The notes beneath the pieces are model-generated. The model was not told where the DNA came from and did not search any database. It saw nothing but the letters and a program-made list of their open reading frames with translations. A stretch of 64,000 nucleotides of DNA from Luteimicrobium subarcticum (GTDB lineage Bacteria > Actinomycetota > Actinomycetes > Actinomycetales > Cellulomonadaceae), in NCBI RefSeq assembly GCF_002798015.1, contig NZ_PGTZ01000011.1:62001-126000 (forward strand), read 5' to 3'. Numbering within the stretch: the first letter of the stretch is position 1; each line of letters opens with the position of its first letter. The translations under genes and the position numbers were made by a program. Positions 25,572 through 32,067 of this stretch are shown in pieces.

Positions 25572-26101
25572 TGCTTCTCCTCCGTCGTGGACGCGGTCTC
25601 GTCGCGCAGGGCGCGCACCGCGTCGACCAGCACGGCCCGGTCGCCCGGGTGCTGGGTCCTCAGTCCAGTGTCCAGGGTGGCGCCGGGCGCCTCCCAGGTG
25701 ACGACCACGAGGCCGTCCTTGCCGACGAACTTGCCGGCCATGCCCGGGCTCGTGGTGACGTCGACGAGCCGGTCCGCGGGGACGAACACGTCGTGGGCGC
25801 CCTCCCGCGTGATCAGCACACCCGTGTCGAAGACCTGGGCGACCGCGCGCGAGCGGTAGCCGAGGTCGTGGGCGGCGACCCGGTCGAGCCAGTCCCCCGC
25901 CGTCGTGCTCGACACGTACACGCCGGCGATCTCGCCGGTGCGCGTCGTGCCGAGGTCACCGGTGGCCGGGACGGGCGGCAGGTCGGGCACGAGGGCCGCG
26001 CCGCGGCGCTCGCGATGCCTCCAGCCGCGCCACATGATGACGAACAGCGCGATCCCGATGACGATCCAGATCCCGACCGCGACGGGCATGGGCAGGTTCA
26101 T
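25568..26101 (-). CDS. membrane-anchored PH-like protein of the pyr operon
   Basis: A 177-residue protein with one N-terminal membrane segment (about residues 6-25, followed by basic RGWRHRERR, so the rest probably faces the cytoplasm). The soluble part contains [28 protein letters not shown], the strand [21 protein letters not shown] and [12 protein letters not shown] recognise it as the conserved actinobacterial protein found between pyrC and carA, predicted to have a PH-like fold. Its function is not established. It overlaps both neighbours by four bases, which makes co-translation with the pyrimidine enzymes almost certain. Confidence 0.8.
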
Positions 26102-27428
26102 CGTGCCGCTCCCACCGTCTCGACGGGCGCACCGTCGAGCACGGTGGCCCGGCCGCGCAGGAACGTCGCGACGACGCGTCCCGGCAGCTCGTGCCCGGCG
26201 AACGGCGTGTTGACGCTCGCGGTCTGCTGCTGCGCGCCGTCGACCGTGCGCACCGCGGCCGGGTCGACGAGCACGAGGTTCGCGGGCTCGCCGACCTCGA
26301 GCGGGCGTCCCTGCGCGTGCTCACCGGTGTCGATGCGGCCGATGCGCGCCGGGTTGGTCGACATGACCCGGGCGACGTCCGCCCACGTCATGCGGCCCGT
26401 GTCGACCATCGTCTGCTGCACGACCGACAGGGCGGTCTCGAGGCCGGTCATGCCGAACGCGGCCGCCGCCCACTCGCAGTCCTTGTCCTCGCGGGCGTGC
26501 GGGGCGTGGTCGGTCGCGACGATGTCGATCGTCCCGTCCGCCAGGCCCTCGCGGACCGCGTCGACGTCCGCCTGGGTGCGCAGGGGCGGGTTGACCTTGA
26601 ACCGCGGGTCGTAGCCGCGTGCGAGCTCGTCGGTCAGGATCAGGTGGTGCGGCGTGACCTCGGCGGTGACGTCGATGCCGCGGCCCTTGGCCCAGCGCAC
26701 GAGCTCGACCGAGCCGGCGGTGGACAGGTGGCACACGTGCAGGCGCGAGCCGACGTGCTCCGCGAGCAGGACGTCGCGCGCGATGATCGCCTCCTCCGCG
26801 ACCGCGGGCCAGCCCTGCAGGCCGACCTCGGCGGACACGACGCCCTCGTTCATCTGCGCGCCCTCGGTGAGGCGCGGCTCCTGGGCATGCTGCGCGACGA
26901 CCCCGTCGAACGCCTTGACGTACTCGAGGGCGCGGCGCATGAGGACCGGGTCCCACACGCACTTGCCGTCGTCGGAGAACACGCGCACGCGCGCGGCGGA
27001 GTGCGCCATCGCGCCGAGCTCGGCGAGCTGCTCGCCCGCCAGGCCGACGCTCACCGCGCCGACCGGGTGCACGTCGACCCAGCCGGCGTCACGACCGAGG
27101 CGCCACACCTGCTCGACGACCCCGGCGGTGTCCGCGACGGGCGTCGTGTTCGCCATCGCGTGCACGGCGGTGAACCCGCCCGCGGCCGCGGCCCGGGTGC
27201 CCGACGCGATCGTCTCGGTGTCCTCGCGGCCCGGCTCGCGCAGGTGCGTGTGCAGGTCGACGAGACCGGGGAGGGCGACGAGCCCGTCGGCCTCGATCAC
27301 GACGGTGCCCTCGGGCAGGCCGTCCGTGTCGATCGTGTCCTCGATCCGGCGGATCGCGCCGTCCTGCAGGAGCAGGTCGGCCGGGTCGCCGCCCAGCGGG
27401 CGGACGCCGCGCAGGAGGTACGTGGTGC

Positions 27429-27432
<4 letters not shown>
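26098..27432 (-). CDS. pyrC: dihydroorotase (PyrC)
   Basis: Third step of pyrimidine synthesis: cyclises carbamoyl aspartate to dihydroorotate. The 444-residue protein is a class I, zinc-dependent amidohydrolase. The metal site opens with [39 protein letters not shown] and [11 protein letters not shown] provide further His ligands, and [12 protein letters not shown] the catalytic Asp. [11 protein letters not shown] is the substrate strand. The ATG at 27432 gives the expected N-terminus ([14 protein letters not shown]). It overlaps pyrB by four bases. Confidence 0.97.
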
Positions 27433-29035
<1,603 letters not shown>

Positions 29036-29282
29036 GAACGTCGGCATATGCGCGATGTGGGGTGACGCGAGGCCTTGCTCAGGGTGGGGGCGCCGTGCGC
29101 CACCGTCCGGCAGTCTACCGGAGGCGACGCACGCGCCCCGTCGCCCCCGGCGCGAGGTGGCTCACATCACGGCCGCGACGGCCCGTCGGGGGCAGCACGG
29201 CACCAGGACGCGTCGTAGGTGTCGAAGCGCGGGCGCGGATGCGGGCGTCGTCGTCCGGGACGTGGCTGCGTCCCGCACGACG
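29036..29282. other. intergenic region between the pyr leader and the nusB terminator
   Basis: About 250 nt without a credible gene. It must contain the pyr operon promoter on the minus strand, but no -10/-35 pair stands out; GCATATGCC near 29043-29051 is a weak candidate. Nothing else was seen. Confidence 0.4.
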
Positions 29283-29315
29283 CGCGCCCCCGTCCCAGGA
29301 GGGGGCGGGGGCGCG
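29283..29315 (-). terminator. hairpin terminator of the efp-nusB unit
   Basis: Perfect 10-bp arms CGCGCCCCCG (29283-29292) and CGGGGGCGCG (29306-29315). Further C/G pairing inside extends the stem around an AGGA loop. It lies 27 nt beyond the nusB stop. Confidence 0.75.
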
Positions 29316-29341
29316 GGTGCGGGTGCAGTCGTGCCGTGCGG

Positions 29342-29791
29342 TCAGGCGTCGTCGGAGCCTGCGGGCTCCGCGGATGCGGCCGGCTCGGCGAGACCGAGGT
29401 CGGCGATCCGGGCGAGCAGACCGTTGACGAAGGCGGGCGACTCGTCGGTCGACAGGGACTTCGCGAGGCCGGTGGCCTCGTCGAGCGTGACAGCGGCCGG
29501 GACGTCGGCGTTGAACACGATCTCCCAGACCCCGGCGCGCAGGATCGCGCGGTCGACCGCGGGCATGCGCTCGAGCGTCCAGCCGTGCGAGTACGTCTCG
29601 AGCAGCTCGTCGATGCGCTCGCGCTGGGCGTCCACGCCCTCGACGATCTCGACCGCGTACTGCGGCAGGCTCGTCTGGGTGCCCGGGACGGCGACCCGCT
29701 GGCTGAGCATGGTCACGGGCGGGACGCCGCGCTGGTCCGCCTCGAAGAGGACGTCGACCGCGCGCTTGCGCGCCTTGGTACGGGCGCCCAC
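29342..29791 (-). CDS. nusB: transcription antitermination factor NusB
   Basis: RNA-binding helical protein that, with NusE/S10, forms rRNA antitermination complexes. The 149 residues start GARTKARKRAVDVLFEADQRG, the typical arginine-rich RNA-contact helix. The family core YSHGWTLERMPAVDRAILRAGVWEI is present, followed by VPAAVTLDEATGLAKSLSTDESPAFVNGLLARI. Length and order are standard. It follows efp by one base, forming an efp-nusB unit ended by the hairpin at 29283-29315. Confidence 0.96.
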   Translation of the reverse strand: MGARTKARKRAVDVLFEADQRGVPPVTMLSQRVAVPGTQTSLPQYAVEIVEGVDAQRERIDELLETYSHGWTLERMPAVDRAILRAGVWEIVFNADVPAAVTLDEATGLAKSLSTDESPAFVNGLLARIADLGLAEPAASAEPAGSDDA

Positions 29792-29792
29792 G

Positions 29793-30356
29793 TCAGTCGT
29801 TCACGCGGCCCAGGTACGACCCGTCGCGGGTGTCGACCTTGACCTTGGTGCCCGACTCGAGGAACAGCGGCACCTGGATCTGCGCGCCGGTCTCGAGGGT
29901 CGCGGGCTTGGTGCCGCCGGTCGAGCGGTCGCCCTGCAGGCCCGGCTCGGTGTACGTGACCTCGAGGACCACGGACGCGGGGAGCTCGATGAACAGCGGG
30001 ACGCCGTCGTGCGTCGCGACGATCGCGTTCTGGTTCTCGAGCATGTAGTCGGACGCACCGCCCACGACGGCCGTGGAGACCGGGAGCTGGTCGTACGTGA
30101 CGGTGTCCATGAAGATGAAGTCGTCGCCGTCGTTGTACAGGTACTGCATGTCGCGCTTGTCGACGTTCGCGGTCTCGATCTTGGAGCCGGCGTTGAACGT
30201 CTTGTCGACCACCTTGCCCGAGAGCACGTTCTTGAGCTTGGTGCGGACGAACGCGCCGCCCTTGCCCGGCTTGACGTGCTGGAACTCGATCACGGTCCAG
30301 AGCTGACCGTCGAGGTTCAGCACGGTGCCGTTCTTGATGTCGTTGGTGGTCGCCAC
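29793..30356 (-). CDS. efp: translation elongation factor P (EF-P)
   Basis: Relieves ribosome stalling at polyproline stretches by acting next to the P-site tRNA. The 187 residues contain the three beta-barrel domains of EF-P. The tip loop of domain I reads [16 protein letters not shown], with Lys at the position modified or contacted in other species; actinobacterial EF-P is thought to work unmodified. The start is a GTG at 30356 with GGAAAG upstream. nusB follows after one base. Several neighbours encode proline-rich proteins, for instance the DUF349 protein at 61953, that could need EF-P, but that is only a general remark. Confidence 0.97.
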
Positions 30357-30410
30357 GATCTGCTTTCCGGTCGGGGGAGGTCGGTGGGCCCGCTGCGGGG
30401 CCAGTCGATC

Positions 30411-30887
30411 CTACCCGACGTGCCCGAGGGCCCACAGGCCGAGCCAGCCGACGAACCCGGCCCAGACGAGCGAGGCGAGCGTCCCGACGACGAACCGCTC
30501 CGAGACGCCGGGGTTGTCGCGCAGCTCGGGGTACCGGCCGAGGCCCTTGATCGCGACGATCACCGCGACCCCTGCGGCGAACCCCGCGAGGACGCACCCG
30601 GTCACGGCGAGGCGTTCGAGGACGCCGATCCAGGTGCCGCCGCGCAGCGCGAGCACTGCGGCGGGGCTCGTCGGGCTGTCCGGCGTGCCGGCGTCGGCTG
30701 CCGGTGCGTCCACCTCGTGGTCGAGAGGCGGAGCGGCGCTCGCCGCGTGGGCCGCGTCCGCCTCCGCGCCGCCGGTGCGGGCCGCAGCCCGCAGGATCGC
30801 GGGCACCAGCCAGAGGCCGCCGAGCACGCTGAGGACGAGCGAACCGACGGCGACGCCCGCGGTCGCGAGCACCTCTCCGGCGCTCAC
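30411..30887 (-). CDS. small membrane protein partner of the SatD-like regulator
   Basis: A 158-residue protein with an N-terminal membrane helix (about residues 5-35), an acidic Ala/Pro-rich loop (about 40-78), and two more hydrophobic segments (about 90-113 and 130-156). The segment between these, KGLGRYPELRDNPGVSERFVVGTLAS, is distinctive and resembles the membrane proteins encoded beside satD-type genes in other actinobacteria. I do not know its function. It lies 10 nt after the satD gene on the same strand, so the two are almost certainly co-transcribed. The efp gene follows. Confidence 0.6.
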   Translation of the reverse strand: MSAGEVLATAGVAVGSLVLSVLGGLWLVPAILRAAARTGGAEADAAHAASAAPPLDHEVDAPAADAGTPDSPTSPAAVLALRGGTWIGVLERLAVTGCVLAGFAAGVAVIVAIKGLGRYPELRDNPGVSERFVVGTLASLVWAGFVGWLGLWALGHVG

Positions 30888-30897
30888 GGGGTCACGC

Positions 30898-31545
30898 TCA
30901 CGACCGGTCAGCCTCCTGGAGCAGCCGGGCCGCGAGCGGACGTGCCGCGGCCTCTTCGGGCCACATGCTAGCGAGGAGACGCTGGCTCACGGCCTGCTGC
31001 GACACGCCGAGGTCGCGGGCCAGGTCACCCTGGGTGGCACCCGCGCGGGCGAGGCGGTCGACGACCTCCCAGCCCGCGTCGGTGCGCCGCGCGACGACGG
31101 CTCCGAGCAGGACGAGCAGCGCCTCGGCGTCGCGGGCGGCACGCTCCCAGGCCGGCGGGCCGTCCCCTCCCCCGCTGCCGGCATCCAGTCCGAGTTCTAC
31201 CGCGATGCGCGCTGCCCCCGGCCGCCGCTTGGCACGTTCCACGGCGTCGCGTGCGGCGAGGTAGGCGGGTCCGCGTGCCGCGCGCGTCGAGCCGGGCAGC
31301 GGCGTGTCGACCCCGCCGACGCCGATCCCGACGCTCCAGCGCCCGTCCCGGACGACCTGCAGCACGGTGTCGACGACGAGCGCGGCGTCGTCGAGGAGGG
31401 CTTGCGCCTCGTCGCCGACGGTCCGTTCGAGGGGGAGGACGACGCCGTCGCCGGGCCGGGCGATGCGTTCGTGCGCGGAGAGGAGCTCGGGCACGAGGTC
31501 GGTGCCGCGGCGGCTCCGGCGCTGGTCGACGGTCAGGACGAACAT
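30898..31545 (-). CDS. SatD-family protein with C-terminal helix-turn-helix
   Basis: A 215-residue protein. The N-terminal 140 residues have the SatD pattern: FVLTVDQRRSRRG, ERTVGDEAQALLDDAALVVDTVLQVVRDGRWSVGIGVGGV, and PLPGSTRAARGPAYLAARDAVERAK. The C-terminal part holds a clear helix-turn-helix, GATQGDLARDLGVSQQAVSQRL. SatD was named in streptococci for growth in acid; its biochemical role is not known. The helix-turn-helix and the paired inverted repeats over its own promoter suggest an autorepressor. The ATG at 31545 lies six bases after TAGGCT, so the mRNA is probably leaderless. It is encoded with a small membrane protein. Confidence 0.8.
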   Translation of the reverse strand: MFVLTVDQRRSRRGTDLVPELLSAHERIARPGDGVVLPLERTVGDEAQALLDDAALVVDTVLQVVRDGRWSVGIGVGGVDTPLPGSTRAARGPAYLAARDAVERAKRRPGAARIAVELGLDAGSGGGDGPPAWERAARDAEALLVLLGAVVARRTDAGWEVVDRLARAGATQGDLARDLGVSQQAVSQRLLASMWPEEAAARPLAARLLQEADRS

Positions 31546-31596
31546 GCGACAAGCCTATGCGCTTGTCGCATCGAGCACAAGCGCCAGGGCTTGTCG
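31544..31596 (-). promoter_or_regulatory. satD promoter with two inverted-repeat operators
   Basis: Promoter on the minus strand: -35 TTGTGC (31575-31580), 17-bp spacer, -10 TAGGCT (31552-31557), six bases, then the ATG. Operator 1 spans 31544-31571: perfect 11-bp arms ATGCGACAAGC and GCTTGTCGCAT around six bases, covering the -10 and the start codon. Operator 2 spans 31577-31594: ACAAGC-N6-GCTTGT, covering the -35. Both share ACAAGC-N6-GCTTGT, and their centres are 28 bp apart. Confidence 0.75.
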
Positions 31597-31602
31597 GGGT
31601 GT

Positions 31603-32067
31603 CTACGCCGTCGCAGGCTTGTCCGCCGCCAGCCGCCCCGCGATCGCCGCGAGGGCCAGCCGGTACGAGTCGAACCCGAACCCGGCGACCGTCCCCGTCG
31701 CCACCGGACCGACGACCGAGGTGTGCCGGAACTCCTCGCGAGCCATCGGGTTCGAGATGTGCACCTCGACGAGCAGCAGGCCCGCCCTCGTGACCTGGGC
31801 CGCCGCGTCGCGCAGCGAGTACGAGTAGTGCGTGAACGCCGCGGGGTTGAGCACGACGTGCGCCCCGGCGTCGACCGCCTCGTGCAGCCAGCGCACGATC
31901 TCGGCCTCGTCGTCCGTCTGCCGCACCTCCGCGTCGAGGCCGGACTCCCCCGCCCAGGCGGTGGCGCGCTCGCGCAGGTCGTCGAACGACAGAGCGCCGT
32001 AGACGTCCGGCTCCCGGACACCGAGCCGGCCGAGGTTGGGTCCGTTGAGGATCAGCACGCGCGTCAT
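31603..32067 (-). CDS. aroQ: 3-dehydroquinate dehydratase, type II (AroQ)
   Basis: Third step of the shikimate pathway: dehydrates 3-dehydroquinate to 3-dehydroshikimate. The 154-residue protein is the small dodecameric type II enzyme. It starts VLILNGPNLGRLGVREPDVYG, with the active-site Arg and flexible-loop Tyr. LNPAAFTHYSYSLRDA and the catalytic His motif VEVHISNPMAREEFRHTS follow. Normally aroQ lies close to aroB; here it is separated by about 6.6 kb of accessory genes, while aroC-aroKB and aroE lie further on. TAGGCT seven bases before the ATG suggests a leaderless mRNA. Confidence 0.96.
   Translation of the reverse strand: MTRVLILNGPNLGRLGVREPDVYGALSFDDLRERATAWAGESGLDAEVRQTDDEAEIVRWLHEAVDAGAHVVLNPAAFTHYSYSLRDAAAQVTRAGLLLVEVHISNPMAREEFRHTSVVGPVATGTVAGFGFDSYRLALAAIAGRLAADKPATA

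Follow-up and report, generated by a model that had tools for sequence, protein, structure and literature searches.

The satD gene of Luteimicrobium subarcticum lies in a 64,000 nucleotide stretch of contig NZ_PGTZ01000011.1 (the window) and is preceded by inverted repeats that run across its promoter, which raises the question of what reads these repeats and with what effect on the gene. The repeat array, its conservation and uniqueness, its covariation with the SatD protein, the gene pair to which satD belongs and the predicted fold of the protein were all computed here.

The promoter proposed by a sequence-only reading of the window was present on the minus strand as TTGTGC, 17 bp, TAGGCT, 6 bp and ATG (Table 1). 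The 6 bp gap between the -10 element and the start codon fits the leaderless transcript that this reading had also suggested, and the start of satD is probably leaderless. A sigma-70 consensus scan of the window gave no match at the satD promoter, the -35 and -10 of which are imperfect. Both of the repeats described earlier were recovered: the inverted repeat with 11 bp arms is perfect (31544-31554/31561-31571) and a second ACAAGC-N6-GCTTGT is found at 31577-31594, 28 bp from the first. Their description as two discrete operators, centred on the -35 and the -10, had to be given up. The satD strand (GACAAG cctgcgac ggcgta gacacccc GACAAG ccctggcg CTTGTG ctcgatgc GACAAG cgcatagg CTTGTC gc ATG) instead contains one array, in which a 6 bp half-site (CTTGNN or NNCAAG; GACAAG or CTTGTC in the window) recurs every 14 bp in alternating orientation across the promoter. 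As the half-site unit repeats and alternates in this way, the two "operators" are overlapping readings, or possible pairings, of a single array. The window array consists of five or more half-sites, and the step at 31604-31609, between the half-sites at 31590 and 31618, is degenerate. One half-site takes in the last two letters of the -10, and another lies almost exactly on the -35.

Table 1. Features of the satD locus, in window coordinates.
Feature	Position	Strand	Remarks
Membrane protein gene, downstream of satD	30411..30887	-	motif LRGGxxIGxLER...KGLGR..EL...ERFxIGTLAS
satD, 215-aa protein	30898..31545	-	N-terminal nucleotide-cyclase/palm-like domain about 1-120; C-terminal HTH
satD start codon ATG	31543..31545	-	6 bp after -10
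Half-site GACAAG (CTTGTC on satD strand)	31548..31553	+	overlaps end of -10
-10 element TAGGCT of satD	31552..31557	-	family consensus T 80%, A 99%, G, N, C 85%, T 100%
Half-site CTTGTC (GACAAG on satD strand)	31562..31567	+	in -35/-10 spacer
-35 element TTGTGC of satD	31575..31580	-	nearly coincides with half-site 31576-31581; TTG kept 96-100%
Half-site CACAAG (CTTGTG on satD strand)	31576..31581	+	on -35
Half-site CTTGTC (GACAAG on satD strand)	31590..31595	+	upstream of -35
Half-site CTTGTC	31618..31623	+	28 bp (two steps) further upstream, in register, inside aroQ 3' end

Analysis of the whole 3.63 Mb genome revealed exact ACAAGC-N6-GCTTGT at three places, two of which are at the satD promoter; the third is inside a nadC-like coding frame and was taken as a chance occurrence. 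With the pattern this rare in the genome, the repeats at satD are not accidental. The three-half-site pattern ACAAG-N8-CTTGT-N10-ACAAG matched this genome exactly at satD only. In 222 genomes of the family Cellulomonadaceae the exact A-class pair CTTGAT-N8-ATCAAG was present at 48 places, of which 43 lie immediately upstream of satD. The other five were isolated single sites in unrelated settings and formed no array. With the pair concentrated in this way upstream of satD, SatD looks like the regulator of one local target.

SatD relatives are widespread in the family: 182 of the 222 genomes, from 24 of 25 genera, have one, and Luteimicrobium xylanilyticum (NZ_CP045529) is among the species that do (locus L261). 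The check suggested earlier, a search for the literal ACAAGC-N6-GCTTGT upstream of satD homologues, failed at all 29 other loci (0/29) because the letters of the half-sites differ between species; the ACAAGC sequence is specific to the window species, whereas the array itself is conserved. For the comparison of homologues the CTTG/CAAG core was used in place of the exact repeat, and the region upstream of satD was read in 110 family species with the array scored by its TTG core alone. The best score for four half-sites at a 14 bp step was 10-12 of 12 in 106 of the 110 species; coding controls reached at most 7 and shuffles at most 9. Of the 110 loci, 69 had a run of three exact CTTG/CAAG half-sites spaced at step 14, and each of the other steps from 8 to 21 gave such a run in 0 or 1 locus. 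In 96 of 100 aligned species the array lay 36 or 37 bp from the start codon, and in the family alignment a TAGNCT -10 was found at a constant position, about 17 bp downstream of the -35. Elsewhere in the class the array is present in different versions. Some of the more distant homologues of SatD, L201, L217 and L220 among them, had no CTTG-type array and carried other upstream sequences. L201, L213, L217, L220, L221 and L223 make up a subfamily with the recognition helix SQSAVSQR, upstream of which TTAGGTAATTTCCTAATG-like palindromes replace the CTTG arrays; these are perhaps another operator code.

That SatD has a helix-turn-helix, as had been read from its sequence, was borne out at its C-terminus by matches of HTH families to residues 159-190 and by the AF2 model (pLDDT 93.7). 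The recognition helix comprises residues 183-192 and includes Q183, Q184, S187 and Q188. HTH_3 scored 15.1 bits against a cut-off of 23, and MarR_2, Sigma70_r4 and others likewise remained below their cut-offs, so that by sequence the domain does not fall within the HTH_3/434-like (lambda-type Cro/CI) families. The nearest solved sequence was a designed 434-type protein (1sq8, E 0.076), with the QQ...Q of which Q183, Q184 and Q188 align.

The letters of the half-sites were compared with this helix in 151 species of the class that have the array; half-sites were located by the TTG core alone and residues are numbered as in the window SatD, 183 being the first of the recognition helix. Read as NCAAG, the half-site has three main versions, ACAAG, TCAAG and GCAAG. 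Residue 183 and half-site base 5 were concordant in 150 of the 151 species: Gln183 was present in all 45 ACAAG species and Arg183 in all 21 GCAAG species, whereas 84 of 85 TCAAG species had another residue (Glu, Ala, Val, Pro, Lys, Asp or Thr). The one discordant species has a poor array. Counted by half-site, Gln183 occurred with A in 177/179 and Arg183 with G in 73/83. At the opposite end of the half-site, GTTG replaced CTTG in 7/7 species with Lys or Arg at residue 188; among the 144 species with neither, it was found in one and was absent from the other 143. This covariation, in 150/151 and 7/7 species, is computed evidence for a feature expected of an autoregulating HTH repressor, namely an operator in the promoter of its gene that is read by the recognition helix of the protein. 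Gly187 accompanied a relaxed fourth half-site base (T in 23/76 versus 3/466) and may itself relax this base. In L159-L184, which are of the R183/G187 type, the upstream half-sites mix CTTGC and CTTTC.

The window species (Gln183 with ACAAG) and its congeners L015 and L016 (Ala183 with TCAAG) are on opposite sides of one switch. A tree built from the N-domain only has 7 changes of operator class and 6 of residue class. Paired independent changes at residue 183 were in the same direction 5 times and once (all branches) and never opposite; at residue 188, five of six starred pairs were in the same direction, one was without a difference and none was opposite. Strongly supported branches carry few of the switches, one in one analysis and two T~Q, one C~R and six at residue 188 in the other, and for this reason the sign test remains above 0.05 for each trait alone. 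The strength of the covariation lies in the agreement of the two positions with ordinary HTH chemistry, in which Gln pairs with A and Arg with G. As the half-site letters co-vary with its recognition helix, SatD itself is tied to these sites.

The N-terminal part of SatD provides a candidate for a signal. The fold of residues 1-150 in the model is like those of class III adenylyl cyclases and GGDEF domains, the best match being Rv1264 (1y10_D; Z 8.7, rmsd 2.2 over 108 residues), with a further match to the 6eib GGEEF domain (Z 8.1); this palm fold was seen in the model only, with Foldseek E-values of 0.015 and above. A BFVD fold search returned nothing useful, and a PDB sequence search returned no SatD relative. 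Residues D7, R41, T42, G44, D45 and E46 were invariant in 58 SatD sequences. An hhalign comparison with cyclases of relatives gave a weak profile match of 36 columns only, in the stretch RTVGDE~KTIGDA, with D45 aligned to the cyclase GD; D7 was placed against the metal-binding aspartate of the cyclases by fold range only. The predicted cyclase/GGDEF fold makes a nucleotide-responsive repressor plausible.

The gene downstream of satD, 10 bp away in the window, encodes a membrane protein with predicted helices at residues 3-50, 75-100, 104-123 and 126-157. Under a strict pattern, a partner with the conserved C-terminal motif follows satD in at least 142 of 176 loci, the partner alignment contains invariant columns, and the satD stop codon overlaps the partner start (ATGA or GTGA) in 124 of 176. 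A similar membrane protein gene accompanies satD at the more distant loci L310 and L313. The pair is therefore conserved and often overlapping, in keeping with the earlier view of satD and the membrane gene as a unit. Searches of the partner against Pfam and NCBIfam gave no match, and a presumed link to DUF3307 received no support from Pfam. On the same (minus) strand, satD begins 57 bp after the end of aroQ. The gene order at 26098-32067 (-) is aroQ, satD, membrane partner, efp, nusB, pyrR, pyrB and pyrC; these neighbours were named by the look of their sequences, and aroQ alone was checked by Pfam. As the satD pair is located between aroQ and efp-nusB, read-through from the satD promoter could reach efp.

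The proposal that SatD acts on its own operon agrees with the presence of the array upstream of nearly all homologues, with nothing array-like elsewhere in its own genome and with the helix covariation. Because the array letters change together with the DNA-reading helix of SatD, it is very probable that the gene pair is under the control of SatD, and the computed evidence that SatD binds its own promoter is strong. Autorepression is the best reading, as both the -35 and the -10 of the probably leaderless promoter are overlapped by half-sites; we infer both binding and repression from covariation and position. We consider it likely, with some confidence, that SatD works as a one-component regulator, bound to the array in the promoter of its gene, and shuts off the leaderless operon of satD and the membrane protein gene. 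The C-terminal HTH would read NCAAG half-sites, with residue 183 reading the first base and residue 188 the opposite end, and several SatD monomers would occupy alternating half-sites 14 bp apart, on the -35, in the spacer, at the end of the -10 and near the start codon. By coating its own promoter SatD would block RNA polymerase at the leaderless start and turn the satD-membrane protein operon off, a negative autoregulation with one local target. The signal for occupancy would probably come through the nucleotide-cyclase-like domain, perhaps with the membrane partner; for release of SatD, the palm domain suggests a nucleotide and the partner a membrane signal, both by inference.

SatD could also bind the array and activate the operon, or act both ways, with the palm domain or the partner switching the mode. 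The array does continue beyond the -35 into upstream DNA (31590, 31618) that could accommodate an activator, the imperfect hexamers missed by the sigma-70 scan would suit an activated promoter, and a site that covers the promoter could serve activation at another concentration; but the half-sites that are best conserved fall on the -35, in the spacer and on the end of the -10 at a fixed phase, the usual position for occlusion, and we consider activation or a dual mode quite unlikely. Unlikely too is a reading in which the palm domain works as a nucleotidyl cyclase or oligonucleotide synthase with signalling to the membrane partner as its main output, the HTH only limiting its expression. The invariant residues, the likeness in fold to Rv1264 and GGDEF enzymes and the nearly constant presence of the partner all favour such an enzyme, whereas the profile match is weak and the Asn and Arg of the cyclase GxxVNxAxR appear to be replaced by L96 and D100 (GPAYLAARD aligned by eye with GPSVNLAARL). 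This reading is compatible with autoregulation by SatD.

Ownership of the sites by another regulator, for example HspR, is very improbable. The A-class pair CTTGAT-N8-ATCAAG resembles the HspR HAIR element, which we take to be CTTGAGT-N7-ACTCAAG, but in 150 of 151 species the half-site letters follow the recognition helix of SatD itself, the T- and C-class arrays are unlike HAIR, and the 14 bp alternating array is found at satD and not genome-wide. Membership in a HspR/HAIR regulon was rejected, as spacing and letters differ from the assumed element in all three array classes. Least credible of all is that the inverted repeats are RNA or DNA structure, namely a leader hairpin, an attenuator or the aroQ terminator. 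A hairpin of the 11 bp arms is conceivable, and the end of aroQ is close by on the upstream side; against this, the last repeat would fall upstream of or at the transcript start, Rfam and terminator scans at the repeats gave no Rfam match and no terminator, and a fixed 14 bp alternating step that covaries with protein residues is unexpected for a hairpin.

SatD proteins are classified in Pfam as PF16264, named after Streptococcus mutans satCDE. The window SatD matched this family over residues 38-118 (E 2.2e-5) with 24.6 bits, under the gathering score of 29, and with 22.3 bits, also below cut-off, in a genome search. The locus has the D..GS and VGDE motifs, the C-terminal HTH and the membrane partner gene of the family, and distant members above the Pfam cut-off share D(I/V)V.S(R/K), the G-D-E motif and the C-terminal HTH. 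The papers found describe no operator or DNA binding for the SatD family, and no regulatory study of SatD or DUF3307 was found. In Streptococcus pyogenes, satD is reported to be essential in tested strains yet present in about 71% of genomes (PMC11323703). A repressor restraining a harmful membrane partner would make satD essential where present yet accessory, and the pattern fits a repressor or antidote of such a partner.

The phage 434 repressor resembles SatD in its recognition helix Q-Q-x-x-x-Q, its ACAA-type half-sites and its multiple sites over its own promoter. It differs in having 14 bp operators with separate spacers, whereas SatD half-sites follow a uniform alternating 14 bp step, and SatD carries a cyclase-like domain instead of the C-terminal domain of the repressor. 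Wharton and Ptashne are said to have made, in 1987, a 434 mutant of new specificity by changing Gln28 to Ala, and the natural A183 with TCAAG mirrors that change. With class III cyclases and GGDEF proteins (Rv1264, Ma1120) SatD shares the model fold of residues 1-150 and the KTIGD / RTVGDE motif; it differs in its weak sequence similarity, in the apparent lack of cyclisation-stabilising residues and in the fused HTH.

For a family that has no assigned molecular role, this provides a concrete target site, a DNA-recognition code that single substitutions could test, and a domain predicted to be of ligand type. Natural switches between ACAAG, TCAAG and GCAAG have occurred repeatedly, even within Luteimicrobium, and offer a clear example of a putative repressor that has changed in step with its operator. 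More tentatively, SatD proteins might be a large unrecognised class of repressors that respond to nucleotides: a palm domain of cyclase/GGDEF type would bind or make a nucleotide and so control how SatD assembles cooperatively along the 14 bp alternating array, which in turn would set the amount of a membrane effector encoded alongside satD, and the recognition helix would have evolved a readable code with repeated natural specificity switches.

A search of a phage collection found no SatD, and a plasmid search gave two weak SatD records. A 1 Mb Arthrobacter plasmid carries a SatD relative (NZ_AP024649.1:107771-108304) that is 38.6% identical and has no annotated gene in the table. Some genomes encode a second, distant SatD-type gene (L312 and L196 in G247, L208 in G468, L198 in G571), about 1 kb from the first satD, with the motifs D.VGSR, TVGDE and ISASAVSQ and, upstream, an apparently different palindromic array.
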